Source of the DNA: a virus
Reading direction: 5' to 3' (one strand)
IMG/VR virus record: IMGVR_UViG_3300047558_000095
Span: 1 to 30,126 of that record
Length of the DNA stretch: 30,126 nt
Each line of letters begins with the position of its first letter. Within the stretch, counting starts at the first letter, position 1. Under the pieces are notes generated by a model. The model was not told where the DNA came from, did no database searches, and was given only the letters and a program-made list of their open reading frames with translations. Below, in pieces: positions 2,469 to 26,581 of the stretch. Both the position numbers and the translations under genes were made by a program.

Positions 2469-2476
2469 TATTTATC
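2469..2476 (-). promoter_or_regulatory. Late-promoter-like motif GATAAATA (minus strand)
   Basis: The only minus-strand copy I found of the motif. It is correctly oriented for the two minus-strand genes; with T4-like geometry +1 is near 2463, giving a leader of about 60 bases. It lies 15 bases from the divergent + copy at 2492. Confidence 0.65.
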
Positions 2477-2491
2477 GTCAAGTGTTTCGGT

Positions 2492-2499
2492 AATAAATA
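2492..2499 (+). promoter_or_regulatory. Late-promoter-like motif AATAAATA
   Basis: Exactly five bases (TATCC) separate the motif from ATG 2505. If +1 is six bases after the motif, as in T4 late promoters, transcription starts on the A of the start codon. Divergent from the motif at 2469-2476. Confidence 0.65.
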
Positions 2500-2504
2500 T
2501 ATCC

Positions 2505-2822
2505 ATGAACGCAAATACTTACGACATTCTAGCAAATATCGCTAAAACAGACCCCGAAACTGCCAACTACTGGCGCCTAGTTGACTTAGTTGAACTCCAA
2601 CACTTGGAACTTTACGCGGATATGCTATCACGCACTAAGGCAGTTCCAGGTGGCGATTGGGTCAAACTCTGTGGCATCTTACACGACTGGAAAACTTACA
2701 GGGACCTGACAGACAAGCAAAGACGCTGGTTAGTGGTCACGGTGGCTAACCACTTAGATGCTATCGTCAAATACGAGCTGGACTTACACAGCGAAATGGT
2801 CAACAGAACTGGTTTCTTTTGA
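2505..2822 (+). CDS. Hypothetical protein, 105 aa, putatively leaderless
   Basis: The start at 2505 (MNANTYDILANIAKTDPE) is preferred over ATG 2454 because the stretch 2454-2504 contains two oppositely directed promoter-like motifs. No Shine-Dalgarno precedes 2505, and the NATAAATA motif ends five bases before it, so the mRNA may be leaderless. The protein looks fully helical, with Leu-rich amphipathic segments (LVDLVELQHLELYADML; KQRRWLVVTVANHLDAIVKYELDL). No family is recognised. It is followed by a -35/-10-like promoter for the polymerase-like gene region. Confidence 0.65.
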   Translation: MNANTYDILANIAKTDPETANYWRLVDLVELQHLELYADMLSRTKAVPGGDWVKLCGILHDWKTYRDLTDKQRRWLVVTVANHLDAIVKYELDLHSEMVNRTGFF

Positions 2823-2825
2823 CTA

Positions 2826-2859
2826 TTGACTTTCTGGCACCTTTGTGTTAGAATAAATA
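2826..2859 (+). promoter_or_regulatory. Overlapping sigma70-like and late-like promoters
   Basis: TTGACT (2826-2831) and TAGAAT (2849-2854) are separated by exactly 17 bases, a good host sigma70 promoter. AATAAATA (2852-2859) overlaps the -10 box. The region could be read by host polymerase early and by a late-specific polymerase later. Predicted starts are about 2861-2865, leaving a 112-116 base leader before the gene at 2977. Confidence 0.68.
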
Positions 2860-2899
2860 CTATGTCAGCAATGACATTCACTATGTCCTTAGTAGAATC

Positions 2900-2940
2900 G
2901 AAATGGGGAGAGTCGAGGCTCCCCATTTCACCCACCTCGA
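2900..2940 (+). promoter_or_regulatory. Leader RNA hairpin with possible pseudoknot
   Basis: An 11-bp perfect stem (2900-2910 with 2919-2929; core AAATGGGGAG/CTCCCCATTT) closes an 8-base loop. Six loop bases, TCGAGG (2913-2918), are complementary to CCTCGA (2935-2940), so an H-type pseudoknot or an alternative hairpin can form. The 5-base connector 2930-2934 is short for crossing 11 bp, so partial melting or alternative pairing is likely. No T-run follows, so it is not a plain terminator. It lies in the leader of the polymerase-like gene. Confidence 0.6.
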
Positions 2941-2976
2941 TCGGGTTATCTACTACGACACAAACTAAGGCAACTA

Positions 2977-4395
2977 ATGAGAAAACCAAATGGGTATCAA
3001 CCCAACTTAAACTATCCAAAAACAGTAAAAAAGATTAAAGAAGCAGTTGGCTTCGTCACAATGATGTTACCATCAAGCGGTAAGCCACGGCAACTAGCAA
3101 AGACAGCGATTGACCAACGACTAGGCAGATCGTCCAATGACTTAGGTCGCTGGCTCCGTTCTAAATTACTTGTAGATGTATCTATCGACTGGTCATGGAG
3201 AGGCACCCAAGGCACAGAAGTAAAACACTACAAACTGAATAAGCGGGGACTTGAAGAAGTTCTCAACATCTTACATAACAAACAACACAAGCCCGACACA
3301 CCAACGACAACCCAGATTGTCCACGATGAGTGCCGAGACCAGTTCTGTCATGCCAATCTACCAATGAATGAGTTCATTGATTGTAACTTCCAACTAGAAT
3401 ACAAATCGGAACGCAGATACTCACCATTTCAGAACATCAATAAAAGTGAACGAGCAAGACTATTCAATAGACATGGCTTTACCTACGACTACGATATTGA
3501 CGCAGCCGCACCTACCTTACTGCTCCAATACGCTAGAATGAATGGCTTCCACAAGCCAACACCGCACTACGACCAGTTACTGAACGACAAGCATAAGGTT
3601 AGACAGTATATCTCTAAGATATTAGAAATCCCACTTGATAGCGCAAAACAACTAATAAATGCCCTCATCAATGGTGCTAAGATAGGCGCCGACAATCAGT
3701 ATCGCACATATTCCACTTTTGACTTATTGAATAGAGATAGAGCCCGTGTTCAAATGGCAACAGGTCGTGATCCTAGCCTACCATTCGACAAATACTTAGT
3801 TGGACTAAGATTGGAGATTTCGCTCATGTGGTCGCATATCTCCTCACTTAACCTACATGAAGTCAACTATGATAGTGCTGGTAGACGAAAAGCCATGTCA
3901 CCTAAGCAGAAAGCAACACTCTATCGTCAACTAGAGACACAGGTAGGTGATGTAGTAGCCAACTATCTAAAGCAAGACTTCATTCAAAACCCAATGTTCC
4001 CCATCCATGATGGATTCATGACCAAATACCAGGTAGACACCACAGAACTAAGTCAATACATCAAGCGCCATACTGGTTTTGAAGTCAAGTTCACCCAGCA
4101 ACTCCTAACTCAGTTACAGAACAGTCACTGCGTGACTGGTTCAGTAAATGAAGAAGATACTTCCGCTATCGCTCCAGTATCCTTTTCTTCATTTACTACT
4201 AAGCACCTCAATAACATAGACGTATTAACGCCATCTCATGGGCTCCCATCATCTACTCACTATACATACAACAACTTTTCTAATAACCACAAAGTATTGA
4301 CAGAACCAGATAAAACTACTAAAATACAAGAACTAATGACCATCTTACTAACGAAAAGAAAACAATATGGCACTAACAAAAGAACACCTAGATAA
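2977..4395 (+). CDS. Putative family-A-like (Pol I / T7 RNAP fold) polymerase, 472 aa
   Basis: ATG 2977 is preceded by AAGG at a normal distance. Residues about 38-100 look like a winged helix-turn-helix (LAKTAIDQRLGRSSNDLGRW ... KHYKLNKRGLEEV). Three later segments match the order and spacing of family-A polymerase motifs: motif A-like YDYDIDAAAPTLLLQYA (170-186, Asp173 and Asp175); motif B / O-helix-like KQLINALING (224-233), with Lys and Gly ten positions apart as in KRSVMTLAYG of T7 RNA polymerase, though the usual Tyr is Asn232; and motif C-like FPIHDGFMTK (341-350) with His344-Asp345. The protein is much shorter than T7 RNA polymerase (about 880 aa) or Pol I and has no evident exonuclease domain. 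The C-terminal 90 residues are Ser/Thr/Asn-rich. DNA polymerase, RNA polymerase or primer/replication-initiator activity cannot be told apart here. It overlaps the next gene by 29 bases. Confidence 0.6.
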   Translation: MRKPNGYQPNLNYPKTVKKIKEAVGFVTMMLPSSGKPRQLAKTAIDQRLGRSSNDLGRWLRSKLLVDVSIDWSWRGTQGTEVKHYKLNKRGLEEVLNILHNKQHKPDTPTTTQIVHDECRDQFCHANLPMNEFIDCNFQLEYKSERRYSPFQNINKSERARLFNRHGFTYDYDIDAAAPTLLLQYARMNGFHKPTPHYDQLLNDKHKVRQYISKILEIPLDSAKQLINALINGAKIGADNQYRTYSTFDLLNRDRARVQMATGRDPSLPFDKYLVGLRLEISLMWSHISSLNLHEVNYDSAGRRKAMSPKQKATLYRQLETQVGDVVANYLKQDFIQNPMFPIHDGFMTKYQVDTTELSQYIKRHTGFEVKFTQQLLTQLQNSHCVTGSVNEEDTSAIAPVSFSSFTTKHLNNIDVLTPSHGLPSSTHYTYNNFSNNHKVLTEPDKTTKIQELMTILLTKRKQYGTNKRTPR

Positions 4396-4693
4396 ATTTG
4401 AAAACACCATTATTCAGATGGAGAATACTATCGACGAAGCCAATAAAGTAAAAGCAGAAATAGAAAAGCTCAAACACGAATTGGCTAAAATAAACAGAAA
4501 GCGTGATAAGTTAGAAGAACTAGCCAAAGAACTAGGTGAAGTTGAACATATTTGGTTAAATGTTCCTTTTGAAGAAAGACACGTTGCTAAGATGGTATTC
4601 AAATGTAGTTGGTGCGCCATGAGAAAGCAATGGGGTATTGACTTATACAGATTCTATGTGTCGTCAAAAGCAATACCTAAACACTGGTTATAA
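4367..4693 (+). CDS. Coiled-coil protein with C-terminal Cys pair, 108 aa
   Basis: Residues about 5-57 form a continuous charged coiled coil (KFENTIIQMENTIDEANKVK ... KINRKRDKLEELAKELGEVE). The C-terminal part has a CSWC motif, followed by MRKQWGIDLYRFYV, that could be half of a metal site. It starts 29 bases inside the polymerase-like gene and has only a weak AAAGAAAA upstream, suggesting coupled translation. Oligomerisation or partner binding is likely; function unknown. Its 5' coding region shares a 17-base stretch with the gene at 5077. Confidence 0.7.
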   Translation: MALTKEHLDKFENTIIQMENTIDEANKVKAEIEKLKHELAKINRKRDKLEELAKELGEVEHIWLNVPFEERHVAKMVFKCSWCAMRKQWGIDLYRFYVSSKAIPKHWL

Positions 4694-4703
4694 GAGGTAA
4701 TCA

Positions 4704-5027
4704 ATGAAAGCAGTCAATAAACTGACAATACCACACAAAGGCCATGAAGTAGTAGTGAAACGAGCCAATCCCAATTCACCGCATTACGGCTTCTATCAAT
4801 GTATTACCTGTAATAAGTTCGTCACTTGGATAGACAAACGCACATATATGATAGAAAAGAATCAACAAAAGCTGGAGAACGTAATGTGGTTTGGTAAGCA
4901 TCAGGGAGAACCACTATCCCAACTACCACAAGAATACTTAGAATGGGCAATACTCAACATAAATGGCACTAAGTCAGAACTAAGACGATTAGATGAAGAA
5001 TACCTAAGAAGACAATCCAATCCATAA
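4704..5027 (+). CDS. DUF3820-like protein with Cys knuckle, 107 aa
   Basis: AGAGGT precedes ATG 4704. Residues 33-36 are CITC, with a His-rich N-terminus (IPHKGHEVVV), which could form a small zinc site. Residues about 62-82 read WFGKHQGEPLSQLPQEYLEW, the short motif typical of DUF3820 and the C-terminus of exodeoxyribonuclease X-type proteins (usual form FGKxKGxPLxxxPxxYLxW). In phages this module accompanies DNA processing proteins. Its position after the polymerase-like gene fits a nucleic-acid role, but no catalytic domain is present. Confidence 0.65.
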   Translation: MKAVNKLTIPHKGHEVVVKRANPNSPHYGFYQCITCNKFVTWIDKRTYMIEKNQQKLENVMWFGKHQGEPLSQLPQEYLEWAILNINGTKSELRRLDEEYLRRQSNP

Positions 5028-5049
5028 CCACCCCTTTTTGAGATAGATA

Positions 5050-5057
5050 GATAAATA
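5050..5057 (+). promoter_or_regulatory. Late-promoter-like motif GATAAATA
   Basis: It follows a short GATA repeat. Predicted +1 near 5063 gives a 14-base leader that consists almost only of the Shine-Dalgarno AAGGAG for the gene at 5077. Confidence 0.65.
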
Positions 5058-5076
5058 ATAGTGAAGGAGAGCACTA

Positions 5077-5424
5077 ATGCCCCACACTATTGAACTAACA
5101 AAAGAACACCAGGAGATACTGATAGAAGCACTACTTCTATCATTAGTTGACAAAGAAGATAATGTCCTTAAAGACCCCAGTAAGATCGACCTAGTCAGAG
5201 AGCAATACAGCGATGCCGCTCAGAAACTACTTAAACCAGTCAAGTGCGGAATGAAATCAAAGAATATCTTTTCATGGATTCAAGACCAAATTAATCACTC
5301 ACCCAACATTCGTGGTATGGAAGTAGCACAACGAGCACTCATTATATGCCAGGCAGCCGCCACTGACAGATACGACATATTCACAAGACCCCATAATTTA
5401 TTAGGTTTCGCTGAGATACGATAA
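5077..5424 (+). CDS. Hypothetical helical protein, 115 aa
   Basis: A strong Shine-Dalgarno (GAAGGAGAGCACTA-ATG) and an upstream promoter-like motif define the start. The protein looks helical, with an acidic first half and a Cys/Lys-containing middle (KLLKPVKCGMKSKNIFSWI). Its beginning, ELTKEHQE, resembles LTKEHLD of the gene at 4367, and the two share a 17-base stretch. No family is recognised. Its stop codon TAA lies inside the next GATAAATA motif at 5420. Confidence 0.68.
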   Translation: MPHTIELTKEHQEILIEALLLSLVDKEDNVLKDPSKIDLVREQYSDAAQKLLKPVKCGMKSKNIFSWIQDQINHSPNIRGMEVAQRALIICQAAATDRYDIFTRPHNLLGFAEIR

Positions 5425-5427
5425 ATA
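5420..5427 (+). promoter_or_regulatory. Late-promoter-like motif GATAAATA over a stop codon
   Basis: The TAA of the upstream gene is bases 3-5 of the motif. Predicted +1 is near 5433. Downstream there is no substantial gene until a terminator at 5615-5654. Confidence 0.6.
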
Positions 5428-5568
5428 ACTATGAATATCTCCTATAGATTTCAAAGTCCCTGTGACGTTAAATGTGGGCATCCCTGTAGTTTGATGGCAT
5501 AATCATAAGTTTATCAGTCCGTGACAAGACCCTTAAACTGTCAAAGCTAATTCAGCTTTTCCTATTTT

Positions 5569-5576
5569 AATAAATA
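5569..5576 (+). promoter_or_regulatory. Late-promoter-like motif AATAAATA
   Basis: Predicted +1 near 5582, only about 33 bases before a strong terminator stem, so it would produce an RNA of about 73 bases unless read through. Confidence 0.5.
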
Positions 5577-5614
5577 TGTAAAAAGTAAAGATGCCCTGTT
5601 TCATGGTAGAAACT

Positions 5615-5654
5615 GAAAACCCTCTAGATTAAAGCCCTAGGGGGTTTTCTTTTT
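5615..5654 (+). terminator. Rho-independent terminator
   Basis: GAAAACCCTCTAG (5615-5627) pairs with CTAGGGGGTTTTC (5637-5649) over 13 bp with one G-T wobble, a 9-base loop and a run of five T (5650-5654). It separates the small RNA stretch from the operon starting at 5701. Confidence 0.9.
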
Positions 5655-5669
5655 GTTGTGTCTATCAGG

Positions 5670-5677
5670 GATAAATA
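5670..5677 (+). promoter_or_regulatory. Late-promoter-like motif GATAAATA
   Basis: It lies 15 bases after the terminator and 23 before ATG 5701. Predicted +1 near 5683 gives an 18-base leader with GAAAG as ribosome binding site. It would drive the small-gene run from 5701. Confidence 0.65.
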
Positions 5678-5700
5678 AGTAACACAACAAGTGAAAGACT

Positions 5701-6030
5701 ATGAACAAACAACCTAAACTTGATACCGAAACCCTACTCACCCTAGCACTACAACGGCTAAAGATCACCAGAAAAAAGTGGGAAGCACAGTGTGCTAAGT
5801 CAGTCAATCTATCTACAGCTACCTATCTCCGAACTGACCGAAAAACTTTCAAGCAAATCTGTCCCACGACAGGCGAACCCAGATATCGTGATGAGTTAGT
5901 ATATGAAACACGCACTCATTTCATCAAAACAACCCAACATGGCAGAGTGATTGATATCGAGACTAAGCCACAGTCAATTATCAATAAACCACGAGTGATC
6001 GTCAAAAAGAAACGCACATACACAAAATGA
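5701..6030 (+). CDS. Basic hypothetical protein, 109 aa
   Basis: First gene after a terminator and promoter-like motif. The protein is very basic, ending in IVKKKRTYTK, with a helical N-terminal third containing LLTLALQRLKITRKKWEAQC that could be a small helix-turn-helix. A beta-prone segment with PTTGEPRYRDELVYETRTHF follows. DNA or RNA binding is plausible from charge alone. It overlaps the next gene by 4 bases (ATGA). Confidence 0.65.
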   Translation: MNKQPKLDTETLLTLALQRLKITRKKWEAQCAKSVNLSTATYLRTDRKTFKQICPTTGEPRYRDELVYETRTHFIKTTQHGRVIDIETKPQSIINKPRVIVKKKRTYTK

Positions 6031-6404
6031 AGAAACCAAGTCAAAAACTAAACAGTCGCAGATTCTATCGTGAAGTAGATGGCAGAATAGAACGAACAAC
6101 AGCACTGGAAGGCGAACCTGACCCCGATATGAGTCAGGGCTGGGTGCGTGGTCTAGGTCCTATTCATACTCAAGAATCTAGAGAGAAGTCATCCCGTCGA
6201 TTCCGTGGTGTGCCAAAGACACCACAACAATTAGAACTAATGCGCAAAGCAAAGCTAGGTGTTCCTAAGTCACCCGAACATCGTGCCGCAATGTCTCAAG
6301 CACACCGTGATAGAACCGAAAAACTTCATAAGATCATGGCAGAACACGGTGTTCGCTGGGGAGTAGCGTGTGATATTCTGAAACAACAAGGTGGCGGGAA
6401 ATGA
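6027..6404 (+). CDS. Protein with NUMOD3-like DNA-binding repeats, 125 aa
   Basis: Residues about 58-95 contain two copies of a short repeat, RGVPKTPQQLELMRKAK and LGVPKSPEHRAAMSQAH, of the NUMOD3 type (GxxxSxEhxxxmxxA), a helix module that binds DNA in many homing endonucleases. No GIY-YIG or HNH nuclease domain is present. The C-terminus (HGVRWGVACDILKQQGGGK) may be a further small helix module. It may be a freestanding DNA-binding protein derived from a homing endonuclease. It overlaps both neighbours by 4 bases, unlike a recent insertion. Confidence 0.6.
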   Translation: MKKPSQKLNSRRFYREVDGRIERTTALEGEPDPDMSQGWVRGLGPIHTQESREKSSRRFRGVPKTPQQLELMRKAKLGVPKSPEHRAAMSQAHRDRTEKLHKIMAEHGVRWGVACDILKQQGGGK

Positions 6405-6703: not shown

Positions 6704-6706
6704 GCG

Positions 6707-6714
6707 AATAAATA
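6707..6714 (+). promoter_or_regulatory. Late-promoter-like motif AATAAATA
   Basis: It follows the stop of the upstream gene by three bases and precedes ATG 6719 by four bases, so the predicted +1 (6720) falls within one base of the start codon. No Shine-Dalgarno is present. Confidence 0.62.
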
Positions 6715-6892: not shown

Positions 6893-7040
6893 TACTGAGA
6901 TTTCAACTGTCATTCAGAACGGTTATTACTATTACGAAGTAGACGGTCGCCAATTTGTATCACGCAAGGATGCTGAGCATCATGTAGTCAAGCAGATTGC
7001 CCTAAAGTATCGTGAACAACGCAGAGAGGATAACAAATAA
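6861..7040 (+). CDS. Small hypothetical protein, 59 aa
   Basis: ATG 6861 follows AGGAAATACG inside the preceding gene. The product has an acidic N-terminus, an aromatic beta-like centre (NGYYYYEVDGRQFVSRKDAE) and a basic C-terminal helix (IALKYREQRREDNK). Unknown family. The stop TAA overlaps the next ATG (taATG). Confidence 0.6.
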   Translation: MRTPEDQQEIDTEISTVIQNGYYYYEVDGRQFVSRKDAEHHVVKQIALKYREQRREDNK

Positions 7041-7195: not shown

Positions 7196-7383
7196 ATGAA
7201 TCAAAACTAGTCAAAGCCAGCGATGGCACGGTATGGGCACCACTACAACCAATTTACTTAGAGATTGAAGAGAAACTGCTACTGGAGGATGTTCCAGAAT
7301 CAGTTCAGGAACAACTACGAACGGTGCTGACATTCTTATCATGCCTAATCATTGAAGGTGAACTACAGGAAGCTCAACAATGA
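7192..7383 (+). CDS. Small acidic protein, 63 aa
   Basis: The ATG overlaps the stop of the 51-aa gene and its own stop overlaps the next ATG. The product has a short start (MNESKLVKASDGTVWAPLQP) and an amphipathic helical remainder rich in Glu and Leu (EIEEKLLLEDVPESVQEQL). No family recognised. Confidence 0.6.
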   Translation: MNESKLVKASDGTVWAPLQPIYLEIEEKLLLEDVPESVQEQLRTVLTFLSCLIIEGELQEAQQ

Positions 7384-7742
7384 GAACTCTGGTCCAACGC
7401 GGAGATACTCAAAACATCAAAGTATTCGACAAGATGGTAATGGAGTTATGTCCCTATTTGACACCTCTAGAGATTGATAAGACTGTTGGCTTCATGGATC
7501 GTATTCAAGGTAGCAAATGGGATATCAACCCAACTGAGAGTGATTCAATTACTCAACTAAAACTCATCTTGGGTGGTGACAGATATCAGGAAGTCAAAAT
7601 GATGTGGGCAAAAGACAATCAACATATCATCCGCGACATTGAAGACGCTAAGACTAAGTTCATTCATAAAGCAACCCAGCAAGTATTTGATGGACTTGAC
7701 CCAGAAGATGACCCTAACGACTACATTGAATTGAAATGCTAA
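7380..7742 (+). CDS. Hypothetical protein, 120 aa
   Basis: Mixed alpha protein with acidic C-terminus (FDGLDPEDDPNDYIELKC). No family is recognised. Translation is probably coupled at both ends, with a 4-base overlap upstream and 7 bases downstream. Its neighbours (HK97 gp10-like protein, holin, terminase) suggest morphogenesis, but nothing in the sequence itself shows this. Confidence 0.62.
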   Translation: MRTLVQRGDTQNIKVFDKMVMELCPYLTPLEIDKTVGFMDRIQGSKWDINPTESDSITQLKLILGGDRYQEVKMMWAKDNQHIIRDIEDAKTKFIHKATQQVFDGLDPEDDPNDYIELKC

Positions 7743-8984: not shown

Positions 8985-9356
8985 ATGACAGAAGAAACAA
9001 AAACAGAAATAATCAAACCAAAGCGCAAACCCTATAGCGTGAAATCACCATCACGTGGTGGTGCCCGTAAAGGCGCTGGACGTAAGAAGGGTGGCACCAA
9101 CAAAGTTCAGTATACAGATTTACTTGACGAACTACAAAAGGCAACAGGCAAACCATACGCTGAGTTAGTCGCCAATGAAATCGTCAAGGCAATCGCCGCT
9201 AATGATACCCGTCTAACAAAAGACTATCTTGAAATGATTGGCAAGAAAGCTATCGCTGATAAGGCAGAGATGGACGTTACTAGTGGTGGTGAAACTCTCA
9301 AGGCGGCATTTCAATTTGTTTCAGCAGAGTTACCAGAGTGGAATAATCTAAAGTAA
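8985..9356 (+). CDS. terS: Terminase small subunit (putative), 123 aa
   Basis: The start is placed at ATG 8985 (MTEETKTEIIKPKRKPY), after AAAAGG, one base after the stop of the HNH gene; the upstream ATG 8919 would lie inside that gene. A basic Gly-rich segment SRGGARKGAGRKKGG (residues about 22-36) is typical of small terminase and DNA-binding phage proteins. A helical region follows (DLLDELQKATGKPYAELVAN ... KDYLEMIGKKAIADKAE). Position directly before the large subunit with a taATG overlap supports the call. It would recognise phage DNA and recruit TerL. Confidence 0.78.
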   Translation: MTEETKTEIIKPKRKPYSVKSPSRGGARKGAGRKKGGTNKVQYTDLLDELQKATGKPYAELVANEIVKAIAANDTRLTKDYLEMIGKKAIADKAEMDVTSGGETLKAAFQFVSAELPEWNNLK

Positions 9357-10795
9357 TGACCGTCAAGACGTTGAAACTTTATGGTGAGCAAACCACGATC
9401 ATGAAAGACTGGTTAGAAACTGAAAAGAACGTTATGAGTATCGTTCCTGTTGGTAGTGGTAAGACGTTTCTTGCTACTATTGCCCTACCAATCTTTGCTA
9501 GTGATGAGCGCTTTCATAAAAATAAGGACGTTATCTATTCGGCTCCTACTCGTGAGATGATCAAAACGTTAATCTGGGATCAGTTGAAAGCAAGTTGTAG
9601 AGATAATTTTGGCATACAAGAAAAGGATATCAACAATAGCGACATGACTATTAGATTTCCAGCTGGCAACTATATCAGATGTAAATCAGCAGAGCAGGGT
9701 TTGAATCTTCGTGGTATTAACGCCTCGGTGTGGTGCGCAGACGAAGCCGCCCTGTATTCTCAGGAAGTTTTACAAGAGATAACGGTGCGACTACGTCCAA
9801 AAGTAGGCTCACCAGATACACAAGGTCGCATGATTGTTATCTCTACGCCTAACGGTGCTAATGCTCTCTACACACTCTACAACACTGCTCTCCAAATGCC
9901 TGATCGTTGGATTGTTCGTCATCTAACATACGAACAAATGCGCAGCGGTAATCGTGACTTCATTGAGCAACAACGCAAGATACTATCACCACTCAAGTTC
10001 GCAAAAGATTATCAGTGTGTATGGGAATCTGTTGAAGATAAGTTCTTCATGGCGTGGAATAGAACCATGTGCGTTGAAGAAGTAAAAGATAACGGTGGTG
10101 ATCTTTACACATTTCATGACTTCAACATGAAGAGGATGGGCGCTGTTGTCGCTCAAGTAAAAAACCCAGGAAAATTAGATGGAACAATCGAAGTTCTCAG
10201 TGTTTATGCGATACCTAATTGTTCAACTGAAGGAATCGCTCAAGCTATTCGTCGTGACTACCCCAAACGTAATATCTACTCTATTATTGACGCTAGTGGC
10301 GCTCACAATAACAGGTCTACTACCTCACCTTTTGGCGTTACTGATAGAACTTTATTAGAGAAATACGGTTTCACTATTGTTACTTCTAAAAAGAGTAACC
10401 CACTAGTGCGTGATACCGACAACTCATCAAACGCATTTATTGCTCGTGGTGGATTGCGTGTAGCATCAACTGAGTCATTGCTCTTAGAAGCCCTAGATAA
10501 CTATCATTATGAAGACGCCTCACGAATCAAACTGGTAAAATACAGCGAACAACAATTCGCACATATTGACTCACTTGGAGATTGCCTTCGCTACGGTATC
10601 AATCACCTATTCCCTATCACACACAATACTTCACCAGTGCCAGATTATCAGGTAGCAGACCCAGGCGCTTATCGTCGCCCAGGTAGCGAATATCTCAAAG
10701 AATCCCCACTATACCCAGGTGGTCCAACATGGGAAGAACTGCTCAATGACGATCACAATAATGGCGCAATGAGCGATAGTGTCGCTTGGGACTAA
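9356..10795 (+). CDS. terL: Terminase large subunit, 479 aa
   Basis: The ATPase domain shows Walker A PVGSGKT (31-37), Walker B SVWCADE (124-130, Asp129/Glu130) and the coupling motif STPNG (163-167). The C-terminal RNase H-like nuclease shows FHDFN with Asp255, IIDASG with Asp312, and a late acidic HIDSLGD. It drives DNA packaging and cuts concatemers. The unusual Walker A lacks the common G/A-x-x-GxGKS/T lead Gly, reading P-V-G-S-G-K-T. The length is typical. The start overlaps the small subunit stop (taATG). Confidence 0.95.
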   Translation: MTVKTLKLYGEQTTIMKDWLETEKNVMSIVPVGSGKTFLATIALPIFASDERFHKNKDVIYSAPTREMIKTLIWDQLKASCRDNFGIQEKDINNSDMTIRFPAGNYIRCKSAEQGLNLRGINASVWCADEAALYSQEVLQEITVRLRPKVGSPDTQGRMIVISTPNGANALYTLYNTALQMPDRWIVRHLTYEQMRSGNRDFIEQQRKILSPLKFAKDYQCVWESVEDKFFMAWNRTMCVEEVKDNGGDLYTFHDFNMKRMGAVVAQVKNPGKLDGTIEVLSVYAIPNCSTEGIAQAIRRDYPKRNIYSIIDASGAHNNRSTTSPFGVTDRTLLEKYGFTIVTSKKSNPLVRDTDNSSNAFIARGGLRVASTESLLLEALDNYHYEDASRIKLVKYSEQQFAHIDSLGDCLRYGINHLFPITHNTSPVPDYQVADPGAYRRPGSEYLKESPLYPGGPTWEELLNDDHNNGAMSDSVAWD

Positions 10796-10799: not shown

Positions 10800-10807
10800 G
10801 ATAAATA
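10800..10807 (+). promoter_or_regulatory. Late-promoter-like motif GATAAATA
   Basis: It lies between terminase and portal genes. Predicted +1 near 10813 gives a 13-base leader that starts with CAAGGA, the ribosome binding site for the portal gene. Confidence 0.65.
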
Positions 10808-10825: not shown

Positions 10826-12406
10826 ATGCGAGTAAGCACCCTACTAAACAAGAATAGCCTGTATAAAGCTATCGAATATACAATGAATGATTACCAGTTG
10901 GCATTTTTGGCTAATGAGGTATTCAAGCGATCATGTCGTCGTAAGCGTCCTAGTGAAGATGCCGCTATCTACGCTGACCTTATTCAGCATACAGCAGTTA
11001 TGCCTATCTGTCGCTATATTGTTGATACCATCAACGATGTGGTATTTGAGCCTGGAACCCAGCGTAAGATGAACTTTGCTTACCCTGATGGCACACTACT
11101 AAACCCTGAGTCACAGGATTGGAGCGAACTATTCCAACTAGACGCTGACTTGACTAACACATCACTTGATGGTGTTATGGAAAACATTGGCGATATTACT
11201 TCTATCTACGGTCATTGCTGGGTATTTGTTGATATGCCAGAAGCACAAGTAGGCTACGAGTCATCACTGCGTCCGTATGTTATTCCAGTATCACCACTCA
11301 ATGTATGGGATTGGGAAATGACCTCAGTTCGCGGTGTTCAAATCCCTGAATATGTAAAAGTGTTAGAGCGTGAAGAATCGGATTGTTACTACTTCAAGTG
11401 TTACTATCTCGGCACTAAGACGCAACCATCATACTGGGAATCGTATGAAGTAGAGAAAGATGCGAATGCCGAAGCAGACCTACTACCAACAGCAACAGGC
11501 ACATTCCCACTAGGTATGTCTATTCCCGGTTTCATCGCATACACTAAGCGTGACCCACGTAGTATTGAGTTAGGTATCTCTGATATTGATATGGCAGTTG
11601 GCGTTCAGAAAGAAGTTTATAAGCTAGAAGCAGAGGCTTATTCTAGTATTCAATTTGCCCGCACACTCATTCGTGCTGATGCTGGTATCAAAGTGCCAGC
11701 GCAAGCAGGTAGTATTGTTCGTGCTACTCAAGGTCAGATTGAAGCAATCAACATTGACCAGCAAGATGTAATGACTATCATTGATAAGCAGAATAGTCTA
11801 CTAGAGAACTTACAGAACCTAACAGGTATGGGTGGCTTATCTACTAGTAGTAAGCAAGTTCAGAGTGGTGTCTCAATCATTCAAGAGCGCAAAGCCCTAC
11901 ATCGTATGGCAAAAGCAAAGTCTCGTCTAATGGAAGTAGCAGAAGAACAAATCTGGACATTTGCTTGTCGCTTCATGGGTGTTCGTTGGGCTGGTGAAGT
12001 CAATTACAACAAAGATTACGAACAGGGTGATACTGAATACCGTATCGCATTGATGGAGAAAGCAAAAGCACTTGCTGGCGATAACCCTGTTATTCAAGGT
12101 ATGATCGTCAAGCAACTAGTTGAGATGATGGCTGAACCTACTGATATCAGAGACTATGTAGAAGCCGCTAAGCAAGTAAGTAATCCTGTTACCACTGCTT
12201 TCGTTGACGAAGAAGAACCAGATGAAGTTTACTCTCGTGATATCGGCGATCAAACGCCACTAGACGATGAAGAAGATGAAGATAGCAAGACAGATATGGA
12301 AGATAATGCCGCTGAGAGTAACGGTTCAATCACATACACTGGTCAAAGCTATACAACACAAGGTGCTATTGCCGCACAATTAGGCTTCACAGGCGGCGGT
12401 AGATGA
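10826..12406 (+). CDS. Portal protein, 526 aa
   Basis: It directly follows the large terminase. The protein has the portal pattern: an N-terminal helical region (ICRYIVDTINDVVF), a central part with DVMTIIDKQNSLLENLQNLTG, and a long helix with QVQSGVSIIQERKALHRMAK and AEEQIWTFACRFMG. The C-terminus is acidic (DDEEDEDSKTDMEDN) and then Gly/Thr-rich. The portal dodecamer forms the DNA channel at one capsid vertex and docks the terminase. AAGGAA precedes the ATG. The next gene, an endolysin, overlaps by 4 bases. Confidence 0.88.
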   Translation: MRVSTLLNKNSLYKAIEYTMNDYQLAFLANEVFKRSCRRKRPSEDAAIYADLIQHTAVMPICRYIVDTINDVVFEPGTQRKMNFAYPDGTLLNPESQDWSELFQLDADLTNTSLDGVMENIGDITSIYGHCWVFVDMPEAQVGYESSLRPYVIPVSPLNVWDWEMTSVRGVQIPEYVKVLEREESDCYYFKCYYLGTKTQPSYWESYEVEKDANAEADLLPTATGTFPLGMSIPGFIAYTKRDPRSIELGISDIDMAVGVQKEVYKLEAEAYSSIQFARTLIRADAGIKVPAQAGSIVRATQGQIEAINIDQQDVMTIIDKQNSLLENLQNLTGMGGLSTSSKQVQSGVSIIQERKALHRMAKAKSRLMEVAEEQIWTFACRFMGVRWAGEVNYNKDYEQGDTEYRIALMEKAKALAGDNPVIQGMIVKQLVEMMAEPTDIRDYVEAAKQVSNPVTTAFVDEEEPDEVYSRDIGDQTPLDDEEDEDSKTDMEDNAAESNGSITYTGQSYTTQGAIAAQLGFTGGGR

Positions 12407-13017: not shown

Positions 13018-13019
13018 AT

Positions 13020-13027
13020 GATAAATA
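13020..13027 (+). promoter_or_regulatory. Late-promoter-like motif GATAAATA
   Basis: It begins two bases after the endolysin stop. Exactly five bases (GTTTC) separate it from ATG 13033, as at 2492, so predicted +1 is the A of the start codon of the homing endonuclease. Confidence 0.6.
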
Positions 13028-13032
13028 GTTTC

Positions 13033-13659: not shown

Positions 13660-13665
13660 TAAATA
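13658..13665 (+). promoter_or_regulatory. Late-promoter-like motif AATAAATA
   Basis: It overlaps the stop TAA of the HNH gene (13657-13659). Predicted +1 near 13671 is exactly the first base of a 12-bp stem, so the scaffold mRNA would begin with a hairpin. Confidence 0.65.
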
Positions 13666-13670: not shown

Positions 13671-13733
13671 TGAGAATGGAGCGAAGTATAGCAGATTGGC
13701 TGTTGTGCTTCAAAATAGTCTGCTCCATTCTCA
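13671..13733 (+). promoter_or_regulatory. 5'-terminal stem-loop of scaffold mRNA leader
   Basis: TGAGAATGGAGC (13671-13682) pairs perfectly with GCTCCATTCTCA (13722-13733) around a 39-base loop. An alternative pairing, AGCAGA with TCTGCT, competes at the top of the stem; GAAG (13683-13686) with CTTC (13708-13711) may add inner structure. It starts at the predicted +1 and ends 36 bases before ATG 13769. Likely roles are mRNA stability or translation control. Confidence 0.6.
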
Positions 13734-14560: not shown

Positions 14561-14571
14561 AGCCGTTATTG

Positions 14572-14595: not shown

Positions 14596-14596
14596 T

Positions 14597-17660: not shown

Positions 17661-17683
17661 TCTTCGCAGGGATGGGAAGATCA

Positions 17684-17715
17684 GGCGGGTTACCCACAAG
17701 GTAGTCCGCCTTTTT
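17684..17715 (+). terminator. Rho-independent terminator after tail tube gene
   Basis: GGCGGGTTACC (17684-17694) pairs with GGTAGTCCGCC (17700-17710) over 11 bp with two G-T wobbles, loop CACAA, then five T. A weaker ATCTTC/GAAGAT hairpin (17660-17681) precedes it. Confidence 0.9.
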
Positions 17716-17722: not shown

Positions 17723-17730
17723 GATAAATA
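17723..17730 (+). promoter_or_regulatory. Late-promoter-like motif GATAAATA overlapping an ATG
   Basis: Its last A is the first base of ATG 17730. Predicted +1 near 17736 is inside that gene, so the motif would serve the chaperone genes from 17921 rather than the 64-aa gene it touches. Confidence 0.58.
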
Positions 17731-18776: not shown

Positions 18777-21734
18777 ATGGCAGATATTCAACTCACCGCT
18801 GATGGATCACAAGCATTAGCAACACTAAAGAAGATTCAAGACAGTGTTGATAAGCTGGGTGGCGAATTCAAAAAGTTCGCTGGTGATGCTAGTAAGAGTT
18901 TAGATAGTGTAAAGAAAAATACAGAAAATTTATCCAATGCTACGGCGATGTTAGGTAAAGCAGTTGGCGCACTAGGCATGGCTGGTATCATTAAGAATTT
19001 TGGTGATTACTCTAAGGAAGTTGTAAACGCAAATAAAGCTACTGGTGTTGCTATTTCCACTATTGATAACTTTGCTAAAGCAGTTGGTAAAGCTGGCGGA
19101 GATAGTAGTCGTGCTGTCGGTGATGTTATTGACTTTACGGCCTCTCTTAAAGAAGCTAATGATGGTAGTGTAGGTGCTCAAGCAGAATTAGAGAGAATGG
19201 GAATTACCCTAAAAGATTTAGGTACTCTTTCAAATGAAGATATTTTTAAGAAAACTATTAATGGATTAGCTGGAATAGGAGATGCCAGTGATCGTAACGC
19301 ACTTGCTCTAAAATACTTTGGTAGAAATTTCAAAGATATTGACTTTAAGACTGTTGCCGCAACATTTGGTCAAAGTCAGGCTAGTGGTAAAGATAATAGT
19401 CAGAGTATTCAGAGAATGGCTGATGCTATGGATTCACTGAATATCATGTTTAGCTCAATAAAAGCTGGAATTTTAGAGGCATTTGATCCAGTCATCAAAG
19501 TATTCAAATTTTTAACTGAAAATGTTAAAGGATTCACAGACACATTAAAAGAAATGGCTAAACTAGCTACTTTAGCTGGTCTAGCATTCTTATGGATTGA
19601 TAAAGTTAGTGGTAAATTTAATAATCTTGCCGCTAATCTTGATATTAACAAGCAACTTACATCCCTAAAAAATAAGACTGCTGAATATGAAGCGTTGATA
19701 ACCAAAATGGGATCTATTCCAGAGAGTAGCCCATTATCTAAAAAAATGGATGATCTAGATGCTGGGTGGGAACGTGCTAAAGCTAAAGAAGATGCGTTCA
19801 TAGCAAAGCACAAAGAAACTATTCAGGCTAATGAGAAATTATCAGCATCATTTACTGCTATGAAGCAAGTCGTTACTTCTCCATTTACTGGTTTAGCATC
19901 GTCATTAGATGGTGTTAAGAATGGTATTGGTACCGCTGTAAATGGATTTAGTGAAGCTAATAAAGCTGGCGAAGCTAACGCTAGAGTAATGTCAAAATTA
20001 GATAACTTCCATATGAAATTTGCTGGCACTGTAATGGATAGTGCGCAATCAATGAAGTTTGCTAGAATTCAAAGTGGATTATACGCAACTGCTAATTTCT
20101 ATGCTACTAAATCAGCAAATACGTTAGCTTTAGCGATTAATGGTGTTAAAGTTGCGGCTGCTTCTACTATCGCGGTGTTAGGAAATATGATTGCTATATT
20201 TGGCATTTTATATACTGCCGCTGAAGCATTGAATTGGCTCATTAATAAAATATTTGATGTTGATGTATTAAAGAATGTCTCGGAATGGTTTGATGAAGTA
20301 ACTGGCGCAGCCGAAAGAGCTAGAAAAAAACAAAAAGAAGTAGATGATGCCGCTAAAGATAAGGCAGAAGAAGAAAAAAGAATAGTCGTCAATAAATTAT
20401 GGGCAGAGACTAATGCGGCGATCAACGAGAATATTAGATCATATGCTCAACAAAATCAAATGAATAATGAGCAATTAGCTCACAGTATCAAAATGATTGG
20501 ACTATCTGAAGATCGTATACAAACAGAAACAGAATCATTTAATTTACAGCAAGAATATAAAAAGAAGATTCAAGATTCTAATAATGAAATAGCAAAGCAG
20601 TTTGATCTATTGAAGGGATTGAAGCCCGGAACAGAAGATTACAAACGCGCAAATGCTGAGATTGATAAACAACGTCAAATTCAGGGCGGTGTAACAAAAG
20701 AATATGAAAAACAAGCGGCAACATTGCCAAAGTTACAAGCAGATAGAACAATAGCAGTAGCTAAAGAGCGTGATCGCCAACATATTCTTGAAGAAATCAC
20801 TAAGCAGATGGAGCGACAAGCGACCCTAGGCGATCAACTACGTGGTGCTAACGACAAGATGGTTGATATTAACTTCCAAGAGAGTCTTCGAGGTAAGTCT
20901 CCACTAGAGAAGCAAATGATGACTATCAAAGAAGATGCTCGTAAAGCCGCTCTCGAAGCAGGTAGAGCATTTGCCGCTGGTTTTGAAGATAGTGGTGATG
21001 GTCTAACACCTGAAAAGGCTAATGAGTTAAAAGTTGGCTTAGACAAAATTGCTAAGAGTTACAAGGCTATTGCTGACGAACAAGTTAAGAACTTGAAAAT
21101 TTCACGCACGTGGCAAGCAGGATGGGATGAAGCGTTTAACGCATACGCTGACAGTGCCACAAACGCCGCTAAGATGGCTGGTGATGCTTTCAACGCTGTT
21201 ACTAACAGTATGAATCAAGCTATTGACAATTTCGTAATGACTGGCAAGTTCAGTTTCAAAGATATGGCAACAAGCATTATTCAAGACCTAATCAAGATTG
21301 AACTCAAAGCACAAGCAATGGATATCTGGAAGATGATGCGTGGTGGCTCATCCAGTGGTGGTGGGTCTGTTATTGGGACTCTATGGGATTGGGGTAAAAG
21401 TATACTTGGTTTTGCTAATGGCGGAGAACCACCTGTTGGTGTTCCAAGTCTAGTTGGTGAAAATGGTCCTGAGTTGTTTATTCCTAAATCTGCTGGCACC
21501 GTAATACCTAATGGTGGTGGTGGCAAATCATTTGATTTAGGAACTACAGCAAAAATGTCAGCTCCAAGGCCATCACCATCAGTTACAAGAGTTACCAATA
21601 ACTCAACACAGAATACATATGTAACGAATAGCATATCTGCTGTTGATGCTCAGAGTGTTGCTCAATTATTAATGAGTAATAAGAATACGATCTTTGGTAT
21701 CGTTCAACAAGCACAAAAAGGACTACCTAGATGA
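18777..21734 (+). CDS. Tail tape measure protein, 985 aa
   Basis: The long helical protein begins MADIQLTADGSQALATLKKI and has coiled-coil stretches, a hydrophobic segment near VAAASTIAVLGNMIAIFGIL and another at LATLAGLAFLWI. The C-terminal part contains DMATSIIQDLIKIELKAQAM and VGENGPELFIPKSAGTV, both typical of tape measure C-termini. AAGGA precedes the ATG. In this class about 0.15 nm of tail per residue suggests a tail near 150 nm, taking the usual rule. No lysozyme or peptidase domain is seen. The 3' end overlaps the next gene by 4 bases. Confidence 0.93.
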   Translation: MADIQLTADGSQALATLKKIQDSVDKLGGEFKKFAGDASKSLDSVKKNTENLSNATAMLGKAVGALGMAGIIKNFGDYSKEVVNANKATGVAISTIDNFAKAVGKAGGDSSRAVGDVIDFTASLKEANDGSVGAQAELERMGITLKDLGTLSNEDIFKKTINGLAGIGDASDRNALALKYFGRNFKDIDFKTVAATFGQSQASGKDNSQSIQRMADAMDSLNIMFSSIKAGILEAFDPVIKVFKFLTENVKGFTDTLKEMAKLATLAGLAFLWIDKVSGKFNNLAANLDINKQLTSLKNKTAEYEALITKMGSIPESSPLSKKMDDLDAGWERAKAKEDAFIAKHKETIQANEKLSASFTAMKQVVTSPFTGLASSLDGVKNGIGTAVNGFSEANKAGEANARVMSKLDNFHMKFAGTVMDSAQSMKFARIQSGLYATANFYATKSANTLALAINGVKVAAASTIAVLGNMIAIFGILYTAAEALNWLINKIFDVDVLKNVSEWFDEVTGAAERARKKQKEVDDAAKDKAEEEKRIVVNKLWAETNAAINENIRSYAQQNQMNNEQLAHSIKMIGLSEDRIQTETESFNLQQEYKKKIQDSNNEIAKQFDLLKGLKPGTEDYKRANAEIDKQRQIQGGVTKEYEKQAATLPKLQADRTIAVAKERDRQHILEEITKQMERQATLGDQLRGANDKMVDINFQESLRGKSPLEKQMMTIKEDARKAALEAGRAFAAGFEDSGDGLTPEKANELKVGLDKIAKSYKAIADEQVKNLKISRTWQAGWDEAFNAYADSATNAAKMAGDAFNAVTNSMNQAIDNFVMTGKFSFKDMATSIIQDLIKIELKAQAMDIWKMMRGGSSSGGGSVIGTLWDWGKSILGFANGGEPPVGVPSLVGENGPELFIPKSAGTVIPNGGGGKSFDLGTTAKMSAPRPSPSVTRVTNNSTQNTYVTNSISAVDAQSVAQLLMSNKNTIFGIVQQAQKGLPR

Positions 21735-23067: not shown

Positions 23068-26000
23068 TGAGCTGGTTTGATGATGAAGAAGACAGTGGAG
23101 ACAGCTGGTACGATTCTGGCGATGGCGGAGGAGATTCTGGCGGCGGCTTCTTTGAATCTGTAGGGTCATTTTTTAGTGATGCCGCATCCGCTGTTGGGGA
23201 CTTTGTAGGCGCGGCAGTTCAAAAGGTGGAAGATGTTGCTAGTAGTGTAATTAATACAGTAAAAGACTTTCCATTACCTAGTTTAGCCAACGTCAGTGAT
23301 GTAGCCAGTAAGAGTGGATTAGTAGATGGTTTGATTAACGCCGGCCTTAAATTTGCTGGCACTGCTGTTGTCAGTTATCTTGTAACAAAAGCAGTTACGC
23401 CTAGCCAACCAGAATCTAACACCCCAACTCCAACTCCAAACCCAGGTACACATATTACCTTACAGCCAGCATCTAGAAACACTTTATCTATTGTATATGG
23501 TTTAAGTTGGACTGGAACTACGGTCGTTGATGCCATGATTAGCGCAGATAATAAGACAATGTGGTATGTTATGGCAGTGTGTGAAGCCCCAGAAACTACC
23601 AATGCCTTTGGTGGCGGGTCTTTATCATTTGAAGGAATAAAATGGGGTGATTATATTCTCAATATGAGCGGCACAACTGTCACAAGTTGGACAGATAGTG
23701 CTGGGAATACTGATACTAAACCTAATGGACTTATTGATATATGGACGTATGGTAAAGGCAGTTCTAATCCATTGAACAGCACTAGTAATGCTTGGGATGT
23801 TCTGAGCGATAGTGCTATTCCTGCTAATTTAAGATGGTCATCATCCGATTCAATGAGTGGATGTTGCTTTATTGTGATGAGAGTAAAATATGACCAAACT
23901 GCCGGTATTACTGGAATGCCATCTAGTATAAGATGCCATATTAGAAATACTATTCATAGTCCAGGCTCCGTAATCTATGATTATCTAAGTAATACTCGTT
24001 ATGGATGTTCTGTATCAGATGATAACATTGATATTGTAAGTTTACAAGACTTAGATGATTATTCTTCACAAACAATCAGCTATACTGATAGTCAAGGCAA
24101 TCCTGCTACTAGCATCCGTTATAGCATCGATGGTGTTCTACAAGTTACTAAAGATAATTACACTAATTTAAATACACTATGCGCAGCCGCCGATAGTTGG
24201 TTACAGTGGAAAGAAGCAACTGGTAAATGGGGTGTTGTAATCAACAAGGCATACAATCAGGGTGCTGGTTCTCAAACTGCTCAATCATTAGCACAGCTAT
24301 TTGCTATCAACGATGATAACGTCATGGGCGGCATTGACTTTACTCCTACAGATTTGAATTCTAATTTCAATAACATTGAGGCAACGTATTATGATTTGAA
24401 TTTAGACAACCAGCAGTCTTCTGTTTTCTTAAATTTAAACAGCGCTATCGTTAATCCTAACGAACCAATGGCACCATTTAAACTAGATTTGCCTTATTGT
24501 AATACTTACTTTAGAGCACAATATATCGCTGAGAGAAAACTCTTACAAAATCGTGAAGATTTAGTTACACAAGTTACCTTAGATTTCAGTGGTCTTCAAG
24601 TAGATGCTGGTGATCTTGTTCGTGTTACTAATGACAAATACAAATGGGTCGATAAAGTATTCAGAGTAACTCAAGTAACAGAAGCAAAGAATGAAGATAT
24701 AATTACTGTTCAACTCAATTTGATGGAATACAATCATCAGATTTATGAGAATATTGATCTACAAGATTTTGTGCCAGAGAGCGATAGTGGCTTGTCTAAT
24801 CCGGCAGCGATAGAGCCTCCATCAAGTTTATTCATTGAATATCCAACTTCAACAAATGGTACGACAAACACTATGGTAGTTGGCGCAACAGTTCCAGCTC
24901 AAGGTATTGTTACTAGTATGGATTTTTATAGTGGAACTAATCCTGACCCTATTACTCACTCCTTATATAAAGCACTGACTAGTGATAATGGAACAAACTG
25001 GAGCGCGGGTGATATTGCCCGTCTGACAGTGAACAGTTTGTTGCCTAATAGTGTTTCTATTGTTGGCATTACTAAGGCAGTGAACGCAGTTGTAAGCACT
25101 AGTGTAGCACACGGTTTGGCTAATGGTGATATCGTATATCTAGACAATGTTGGTGGTATGACTAACATTAACGGACAGAAGTCTCCGGTGTCTGTTATTT
25201 CTCCTACATCGTTTGCGTTAAACAATATCAACAGTGTTCTATATAACACATACACCAGTGGAGGCAAAGTTCAGCGCCCAGTATTCTTCTCTGTTAAAGC
25301 GACAACTACTACGGGTCCATCTTCTGGTGGTGCTGGTATCAGCAGTGCTCCATCTACAGTGGCAAAAGCAACTTGGGCTGGTAGTGGCGTTACTCCATCA
25401 GGTATTAATAGTAGTAGTATCACTAATAACGCTGTCTCAGAAACTGTCAGTGTTGTGATTGCTAATAACCCTGAGAATCCTATTCAGTATGGTGTTTACT
25501 TAGACCCTACAGATAACTCTGGTGCTCATGATATTACTTACAGAACTATCTATGGATTCTCCCCAATCGATAGAACAACAGACCCAGATCCGTCTACTCC
25601 TATTATTGACTTTGTTGAGATTTATTCTTCACAAACAGTGCCAAATTTTATAGCAAACATTGGTGACTTATCGTATCCTGATCCTGCTGTTACTGACCCA
25701 GCTAACGGTTATTTCAATGTGATTCCTTTCCTTATCACTAATGGTATGACATTAAATACAGGAGACAAATATAGTATTGATGCTACGTTTAGTGCCGTTC
25801 AGCATTGGCTAACAGATAGCACTACTACAGTAGTAGGTTATGAGTTGGCTATTTTTGAACAATTACCAGGAACAAGTGCGTGGATTAAGAAGTTTCAGAT
25901 TTATGATGAAGGGACAAACATCATCACAAGTAACCCGACTGCTCCATATATTCAGAAAGATGGTTACTTTCCAGTTATTGCTACTATTAGTGGTTTAGAT

Positions 26001-26150
26001 TTCACTGTGACTACTGCTAGTGGATTATATAAATGGGCTGTTGGCGTCAGTTATACTTTAGCTGGCGGCACAGGAAACCCTTCTTACAATACCCCAAATC
26101 AAATGAACCTCTACAACAGTAACATCAAAGTAACGAGACTAAGAAAATGA
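23067..26150 (+). CDS. J-like tail tip / host specificity protein, 1027 aa
   Basis: The N-terminus is low-complexity Asp/Ser/Gly-rich (DDEEDSGDSWYDSGDGGGDS), followed by an amphipathic Ala/Val region, then a Pro/Thr linker (PESNTPTPTPNPG). From about residue 128 a tail-tip core begins (LQPASRNTLSIVYGLSW), with RYGCSVSDDNIDIVSLQDLD and VDAGDLVRVTNDKYKWVDKV typical of lambda J-like proteins. The C-terminal half is beta-rich, likely fibronectin-like or carbohydrate-facing domains, with repeated Thr/Ser/Gly linkers. It would form the tail tip and contact the receptor. It is the second longest gene here. Confidence 0.85.
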   Translation: MSWFDDEEDSGDSWYDSGDGGGDSGGGFFESVGSFFSDAASAVGDFVGAAVQKVEDVASSVINTVKDFPLPSLANVSDVASKSGLVDGLINAGLKFAGTAVVSYLVTKAVTPSQPESNTPTPTPNPGTHITLQPASRNTLSIVYGLSWTGTTVVDAMISADNKTMWYVMAVCEAPETTNAFGGGSLSFEGIKWGDYILNMSGTTVTSWTDSAGNTDTKPNGLIDIWTYGKGSSNPLNSTSNAWDVLSDSAIPANLRWSSSDSMSGCCFIVMRVKYDQTAGITGMPSSIRCHIRNTIHSPGSVIYDYLSNTRYGCSVSDDNIDIVSLQDLDDYSSQTISYTDSQGNPATSIRYSIDGVLQVTKDNYTNLNTLCAAADSWLQWKEATGKWGVVINKAYNQGAGSQTAQSLAQLFAINDDNVMGGIDFTPTDLNSNFNNIEATYYDLNLDNQQSSVFLNLNSAIVNPNEPMAPFKLDLPYCNTYFRAQYIAERKLLQNREDLVTQVTLDFSGLQVDAGDLVRVTNDKYKWVDKVFRVTQVTEAKNEDIITVQLNLMEYNHQIYENIDLQDFVPESDSGLSNPAAIEPPSSLFIEYPTSTNGTTNTMVVGATVPAQGIVTSMDFYSGTNPDPITHSLYKALTSDNGTNWSAGDIARLTVNSLLPNSVSIVGITKAVNAVVSTSVAHGLANGDIVYLDNVGGMTNINGQKSPVSVISPTSFALNNINSVLYNTYTSGGKVQRPVFFSVKATTTTGPSSGGAGISSAPSTVAKATWAGSGVTPSGINSSSITNNAVSETVSVVIANNPENPIQYGVYLDPTDNSGAHDITYRTIYGFSPIDRTTDPDPSTPIIDFVEIYSSQTVPNFIANIGDLSYPDPAVTDPANGYFNVIPFLITNGMTLNTGDKYSIDATFSAVQHWLTDSTTTVVGYELAIFEQLPGTSAWIKKFQIYDEGTNIITSNPTAPYIQKDGYFPVIATISGLDFTVTTASGLYKWAVGVSYTLAGGTGNPSYNTPNQMNLYNSNIKVTRLRK

Positions 26151-26578
26151 TTATCACATATTACGACCCAATAACTGGACAGATTCTCTCAGTGGCAGAT
26201 GCTCAAAACGAGCACGATATCCTAGTAGGAGAAGCATATGCGGAAGGTAGATACGATGGTGCTACCTGTTATATTGATACTGAGTCCAAGCTTCCAGTTC
26301 TATTCCCAAAAAAGCCAATCAATACTCGTCATAAATACAGTTTTGATTGGGTATCTAAAGAGTGGAAAGTAGACATTGCTCTTACCGAAAGAATGGTTCG
26401 GCAGATGCGTGATAGACTATTTCAACCATTAGATAAAATGAATCCAATCTGGTATGATTGTTTGAGTGAGGAACAAAAACAACAACTGAAGGATTATCGT
26501 AAATCGTTGCTAGATATTACAAAACAACCTGACTATCCGCTAGATGTAACATTCCCAGCAATCCCCAATTTTTTATAA
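26147..26578 (+). CDS. Tail fibre assembly chaperone-like protein, 143 aa
   Basis: The N-terminal part is beta-rich (MIITYYDPITGQILSVADAQ). The C-terminal part, MRDRLFQPLDKMNPIWYD then LSEEQKQQLKDYRKSLLDI and a proline-rich end, matches the common RDxLLxxxD...LxxEQxxxWxxYRxxLRDI pattern of Phage_tail_APC / tail fibre assembly proteins. Such proteins assist folding or attachment of fibres, and fibre genes follow. It overlaps the J-like gene by 4 bases. The next promoter-like motif overlaps its stop. Confidence 0.83.
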   Translation: MIITYYDPITGQILSVADAQNEHDILVGEAYAEGRYDGATCYIDTESKLPVLFPKKPINTRHKYSFDWVSKEWKVDIALTERMVRQMRDRLFQPLDKMNPIWYDCLSEEQKQQLKDYRKSLLDITKQPDYPLDVTFPAIPNFL

Positions 26579-26581
26579 ATA
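26574..26581 (+). promoter_or_regulatory. Late-promoter-like motif TATAAATA over a stop codon
   Basis: The only copy with the full T4 late consensus octamer. It contains the stop TAA (26576-26578) of the fibre chaperone gene and lies six bases before ATG 26588, so predicted +1 is 26587. No Shine-Dalgarno is present. Confidence 0.68.

Follow-up and report, generated by a model that had tools for sequence, protein, structure and literature searches.

The heptamer ATAAATA recurs at the gene boundaries of a 30,126-base linear virus record from IMG/VR that carries siphovirus-type genes (IMGVR_UViG_3300047558_000095; the whole stretch is referred to here as the window). These boxes are very probably T4-type late promoters, and the combined reading, in which such promoters are served by a sigma factor of the gp55 family, is probable. 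Support for the promoter interpretation is good and comes from the motif, its orientation, the promoter geometry, the early and late layout of the genes, and the presence of gp55 in two close relatives, G002 and G003. The interpretation was put forward in a preliminary description of the same DNA and holds in these respects, but no gp55 is detectable in the window and the term late fits only in part, as the motif also stands ahead of genes of the early and middle blocks. The motif, its orientation and position, the gp55 genes of G002 and G003, the sigma-70 promoter of the G003 gene, and the ancestry of gp55 were all computed.

Position and geometry of the boxes

ATAAATA occurs 14 times on the plus strand of the window and once on the minus strand (Table 1). 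The total is a modest excess over shuffled sequence (15 copies versus 8.9), and the extreme feature is position: 13 of the 14 plus-strand copies fall inside a gene-boundary zone of 2,422 nt, defined as sequence that is intergenic or no more than 8 nt from a gene end. Expectations for this zone are 1.25 copies with a first-order Markov model (largest value 7 in 2,000) and 1.6 with a second-order model (largest value 8), and ATAAATA is the commonest 7-mer within it. A few gene starts of the window were placed with the motif partly in view, which makes the window-only test slightly favourable, and relatives serve as the independent test. Across 86 loci of relatives, some of them overlapping, that were retrieved via the terminase or the capsid protein, ATAAATA occurs 276 times on the strand of the capsid gene and 20 times on the opposite strand; the 20 other 7-mers composed of five A and two T have strand ratios of about 1:1 to 5:1 in the same loci. 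Regions upstream of genes in 15 related genomes hold 80 sense and 6 antisense copies, with about 16 expected. The enrichment at gene boundaries is thus confirmed by the comparison with shuffled sequence and relatives that had been suggested at the outset, and chance or A-rich gaps are ruled out as its source by the Markov controls and the permuted words.

The preliminary description had given its coordinates as the start of an octamer, and each heptamer begins one base later. All 13 of the plus-strand boundary copies that it listed are present, as is the one same-strand copy within a gene body, and three copies do reuse an upstream stop codon (5421, 13659, and 26575). Its single minus-strand copy is indeed upstream of the minus-strand genes, but sits in the spacer of a sigma-70-like promoter. 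The base preceding the 13 boundary copies is G (7), A (5), or T (1), with C before the in-gene copy and G before the minus-strand copy. A preference for G or A in front is typical of the close clade, while distant relatives extend the box to roughly GnATAAATACATTA. Flanks also differ by clade, with G.ATAAATAC found in 36% of distant-clade copies versus 5% in the close clade.

Beyond the core ATAAATA and a coding-strand position upstream of genes above chance, the aligned copies share a further promoter property, the lack of a -35 element. In T4, the late box spans -13 to -6, and the late-promoter consensus is variable, the T at -13 differing among T4 relatives (PMC1524935). With this spacing, the sixth base after the motif would be +1, and the start-codon and hairpin positions are consistent with such a start. 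For every motif copy, the start-codon offset was taken to the first ATG beginning a reading frame of 50 codons or more. The offsets are bimodal: overall they peak at the sixth base after the motif and again at 17-20, with 7-9 empty, placing gene starts either on the sixth base or 10-15 nt beyond it. In the close clade, 18 of 66 copies have offsets of -1 to 6, the interval 7-9 is vacant, and a further group lies at 15-24. In the distant clade, 9 copies form a sharp peak at the sixth base, offsets of 7-11 are missing, and a second group at 16-20 is accompanied by a Shine-Dalgarno sequence. Genes of the first offset class would accordingly be leaderless.

Several copies had been said to follow a terminator or hairpin, and three follow or touch one: terminators lie directly 5′ of the motif at 5671 and at 17724, and the copy at 14598 is overlapped by a hairpin. 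Such an arrangement would be expected of sites where transcription starts anew. Ahead of the scaffold-like gene, the predicted +1 (13671) is also the first base of a strong hairpin (13671-13733; z -5.9); the idea of a general structured leader 3′ of the motif was rejected, since it holds in the close clade only (mean z -0.7 overall). Separately, the motif before the scaffold/capsid operon is followed within about 10-30 nt by a conserved element, TCGGTGRCTCCG (variants include TCGTTTATTACG); this element has 41 copies on the plus strand and none on the minus strand, 36 of them within 150 nt of ATAAATA.

Sigma-70 promoters complete the layout. In G003, the gp55 gene (start 6986) lies 15 nt behind TTGACT-17-TATACT at 6943-6971, the minus-strand early block has 11 good sigma-70 sites versus 2.3 expected, and sigma-70 sites and ATAAATA mostly occupy separate parts of the genome. 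The two promoter types overlap in at least four genomes, and in the close clade this applies to 5 of 78 boxes (0.5 expected), one of them the window site at 2826-2859. Overlapping early and late promoters have been described in RB49 and S-PM2 (PMC2984593). Sigma-70-like sites as a whole are no commoner in the window than in shuffles.

These features suggest a transcription program in which ATAAATA would act as a single -10 box, lacking a -35 element and recognised by host RNA polymerase bound to a phage sigma factor of the gp55 family. The host sigma-70 holoenzyme would transcribe the early genes, including, in the relatives, the gp55 gene itself, after which gp55 would redirect the polymerase to the boxes of the remaining early and middle genes and of the packaging, head, and tail genes, often just past the terminator that ended the upstream transcript. 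The reading of the motif by gp55, the start site, and the timing are predictions of this scheme. Transcripts would start at the sixth base after the motif, giving leaderless mRNA for the fraction of genes with an ATG there and a short leader with a Shine-Dalgarno sequence for most others. At some early-block sites, a box overlapping a sigma-70 promoter may allow a gene to be served in both phases.

gp55 in close relatives

The preliminary description had implied an unrecognised late transcription factor and suggested a search of the rest of the genome with profiles that included gp55; profile searches of relatives found gp55 in G002 and G003. In G003 (IMGVR_UViG_3300047560_001508), a 265-amino-acid protein gives the one weak match to PF04542 and matches PHROG 12791, 'sigma factor for late transcription' (2e-58), PHROG 234, 'late sigma transcription factor' (8e-26), and T4 gp55 itself by BLASTP (1e-10). 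G002 encodes a 54% identical protein picked up by the same PHROG profiles, and a profile of both proteins with jumbo-phage members finds T4 gp55 in PDB 7d7c (1.1e-10). Over the sigma region, these matches place both proteins in the gp55 family. In T4 gp55, a C-terminal extension that is not common to the whole family carries the clamp-binding motif; the G002/G003 alignment stops short of it, as is also the case for other jumbo-subfamily members.

Both genes are located upstream of the primase block, and each of the two contigs also bears terminase and portal genes. In a set of 136 gp55 sequences, the two proteins group as a clade of their own (support 0.99). Because these contigs carry terminase and portal genes, come from different samples, and encode proteins of one separate clade, chimeric assembly is an unlikely source of gp55. 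The portal tree groups the window with G001, G002, G003, and G005, and within this clade G003 and G002 branch off deepest, so gp55 is, on the evidence of that tree, ancestral in the clade; G005 takes another position in the terminase tree, where support within the clade is weak. The ancestral reader of the motif in this clade would then be a gp55-family sigma factor, and the window's own phage would have, or have had, gp55. Its absence from G001, G004, and G005 is uninformative, since these contigs have an end that falls within, or just ahead of, the endonuclease or primase found after gp55.

Possible alternative readers of the box

Several results weigh against T4-type late promoters read by gp55. 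No gp55 was found in the 30-kb window by PHROG profiles, by a hidden Markov model (HMM) with all filters off, or by profile-profile comparison, and searches of more than 30 motif-bearing distant relatives, G013 among them, found none either; the proposed factor is thus borne out in the close relatives but not in these members. The gp45 clamp, searched with PF02916 in 17 genomes, gave no match above the cut-off. The preferred first base is G or A, not T. At some genes (17730 and its orthologues), the conserved ATG follows the box by 0-3 nt, which puts it upstream of the predicted +1; it could not be translated from that transcript, and the model leaves this placement unexplained. A candidate for the T4 sliding clamp in G013 (PF02916, 7.8e-5) was discarded as a tail-tube gene.

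G013 (L122 and L117) illustrates the problem. Both ends of its sequence lie in the terminase gene, at neighbouring codons, and it therefore looks complete at 34,417 bases. ATAAATA precedes genes on both of its strands and virion genes are present, with no recognisable DNA polymerase, primase, other replication gene, or sigma factor such as gp55. There is a minor chance that many small-phage members without gp55 keep T4-type late promoters and rely on an unrelated, converged factor or on gp55 supplied in trans.

Of the competing explanations, the strongest, itself unlikely, accepts the promoter but has the window and the distant gp55-less relatives use another phage factor: a sigma factor diverged too far for detection, an unrelated activator, or a polymerase. 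The failure of all three search methods, the clade-specific flanks, and an early protein of 472 amino acids (2977-4395) with polymerase-like motifs speak for it. No candidate gene is conserved across the distant clade, however, the polymerase-like family occurs in only 4 of 10 and G013 has no large early protein, and the ancestral factor of the close clade appears to be gp55.

The 472-amino-acid protein is an orphan that stands where sister phages have the primase block. Its possible polymerase-like motifs (YDYDIDAA and IHDGF) are short and were spotted by eye, and it aligns weakly with a family of 517-610 amino acids from four distant relatives. As a motif-reading phage polymerase it was rejected: the predicted model was useless (predicted local distance difference test, pLDDT, 36), searches gave no PDB sequence match and no viral-contig relative, and G013 lacks the family to which it may belong. 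A second family, of 120 amino acids (window 7380-7742), is present in 14 of the 17 genomes compared. It was rejected as a gp33- or sigma-like factor, as a confident model (pLDDT 84) had no PDB fold match; the G013 member has no match in Pfam or PHROG.

It is considerably less probable that sigma-70 or another host sigma factor reads ATAAATA as a variant -10 box. Host sigma factors are available at all times and several copies overlap good sigma-70 promoters, but in the close clade such overlap is seen at 5 of 78 copies, most copies have no -35 element, the window's sigma-70-like sites occur at shuffle frequency, and in G003 the two kinds of site are largely segregated. Slightly less probable again is late-transcription parasitism, in which gp55-less members would receive gp55 in trans from a co-infecting T4-type or jumbo phage. 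The apparent completeness of G013, with the motif but neither gp55 nor a recognisable replication gene, would suit such a life style, yet there is no evidence of co-infection, the distant-clade flanks are unlike those of T4, CBB, and 156 large-phage gp55 loci, and distant members carry a full set of virion genes and some consensus sigma-70 promoters. Finally, the closeness of many copies to a start codon (6 nt or less) would suit a translation-start or A-rich leader signal, but this is the least probable account, given that many other copies lie 14-60 nt upstream behind a Shine-Dalgarno sequence or well over 100 nt upstream of the capsid gene, that some directly follow terminators, and that other A+T-rich words do not share its strand bias.

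The phage family and known late-transcription systems

The first and last genes of the window are cut by the contig ends, so the record is incomplete. The contigs of its nearest relatives are 38-45 kb long and several stop within the tail-fibre region, and the window therefore probably lacks several kb, most likely tail-fibre genes. An in-frame junction of its two ends was not used as a sign of a complete circle, as it arises by chance in one case in three. The capsid protein has more than 160 relatives in IMG/VR and none among named phages or in 84,980 species genomes (one genome per bacterial or archaeal species). Identification of the host via this protein accordingly failed, and its distribution indicates an uncultured phage family known from metagenomes only. 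Relative to sister phages, the primase block of the window is replaced by unrelated genes at 2505-5424. An HNH-type endonuclease gene with its own ATAAATA at its start is inserted between the endolysin and scaffold genes (13018-13659), and further homing-type genes (NUMOD3) lie at 6027-6404.

Table 1. ATAAATA copies, other promoter-like elements, and landmark genes of the window.
Feature	Position	Strand	Context
ATAAATA	2469-2475	-	inside spacer of sigma-70-like promoter (2481-2453) of minus-strand genes
ATAAATA	2493-2499	+	ATG 2505 is the sixth base after the motif, the predicted +1; predicted leaderless
Putative overlapping early/late promoter	2826-2859	+	TTGACT-17-TAGAAT (2826-2854) with ATAAATA 2853-2859
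Sigma-70-like promoter TTGACA-17-TAAAAT	4297-4325	+	upstream of gene 4367, early block
ATAAATA	5051-5057	+	upstream of gene 5077; strong Shine-Dalgarno AAGGAG between
ATAAATA	5421-5427	+	overlaps stop codon of gene 5077-5424
ATAAATA	5570-5576	+	within intergenic region 5425-5700
ATAAATA	5671-5677	+	3′ of terminator-like hairpin (5631-5648), 5′ of gene 5701
ATAAATA	6708-6714	+	ahead of gene 6719
Terminase large subunit	9356-10795		window gene
ATAAATA	10801-10807	+	terminase large subunit/portal junction, then Shine-Dalgarno; conserved in relatives
Portal	10826-12406		window gene
ATAAATA	13021-13027	+	HNH gene ATG 13033 at predicted +1
ATAAATA	13659-13665	+	upstream of scaffold-like gene; overlaps upstream stop codon
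ATAAATA	14598-14604	+	touches hairpin (14566-14601); about 145 nt upstream of major capsid protein gene (14748)
Conserved element TCGGTGRCTCCG/variants	14614-14625 and 14637-14648		upstream of scaffold/capsid genes, also in relatives
Capsid (major capsid protein)	14748-15737		window gene
ATAAATA	17724-17730	+	directly after terminator (17683-17711); conserved ATG 17730 overlaps motif
Tape measure	18777-21734		window gene
In-gene ATAAATA, preceded by C	26331-26337	+	probably not a promoter
TATAAATA	26575-26581	+	overlaps stop codon of gene 26147-26578; before gene 26588

gp55-type late transcription has so far been described in T4-type and jumbo myophages. All 60 gp55 matches sampled evenly from 1,745 named phage records lie in genomes of at least 142 kb, with none in a small named phage, and a literature search of incomplete coverage found no paper on gp55 or its promoter in a small siphophage. 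The present family would extend T4-type late transcription beyond large myophages, as a variant in small, long-tailed phages. That this promoter and a deep-branching gp55 clade occur together in phages of about 40 kb, in which gp45 had no match, suggests a minimal version of the system and a sigma factor separable from the T4 replication apparatus. Virion genes of uncultured phages can be placed under a named promoter, and the gp55-less relatives raise the directly testable question of what reads the box.

T4, RB49, KVP40, and the cyanomyoviruses likewise have a TATAAATA/NATAAATA box without a -35 element upstream of virion genes and a gp55-family sigma factor, in a late-transcription system that also comprises the coactivators gp33 and gp45. 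Unlike that group, the phages considered here are contigs of 30-45 kb with siphovirus-type tail genes, prefer G or A to T as the first base, and include members in which no gp55 was found; their gp55 belongs to another subfamily that lacks the T4 C-terminal extension, and PF02916 finds no gp45. The nearest gp55 proteins among named phages (33-37% identity, near full length) are the long gp55 proteins (PHROG 12791) of the jumbo myophages CBB, GAP32, 121Q, PA5oct, Atu_ph07, and Phosso. In CBB, ATAAATA precedes structural genes and gp33 and gp45 were not detected (PMC5259590), so that this gp55 subfamily and this motif are paired independently. The jumbo phages differ in size (280-490 kb), and the small-phage gp55 forms a clade separate from theirs. 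Another comparable case is offered by the podophages phiEco32 and SU10, smaller non-myophages that encode their own sigma factor, of the extracytoplasmic function (ECF) type (PMC4281155), for middle and late promoters; that sigma factor is unrelated to gp55, and its motif is tAATGTATAtA.

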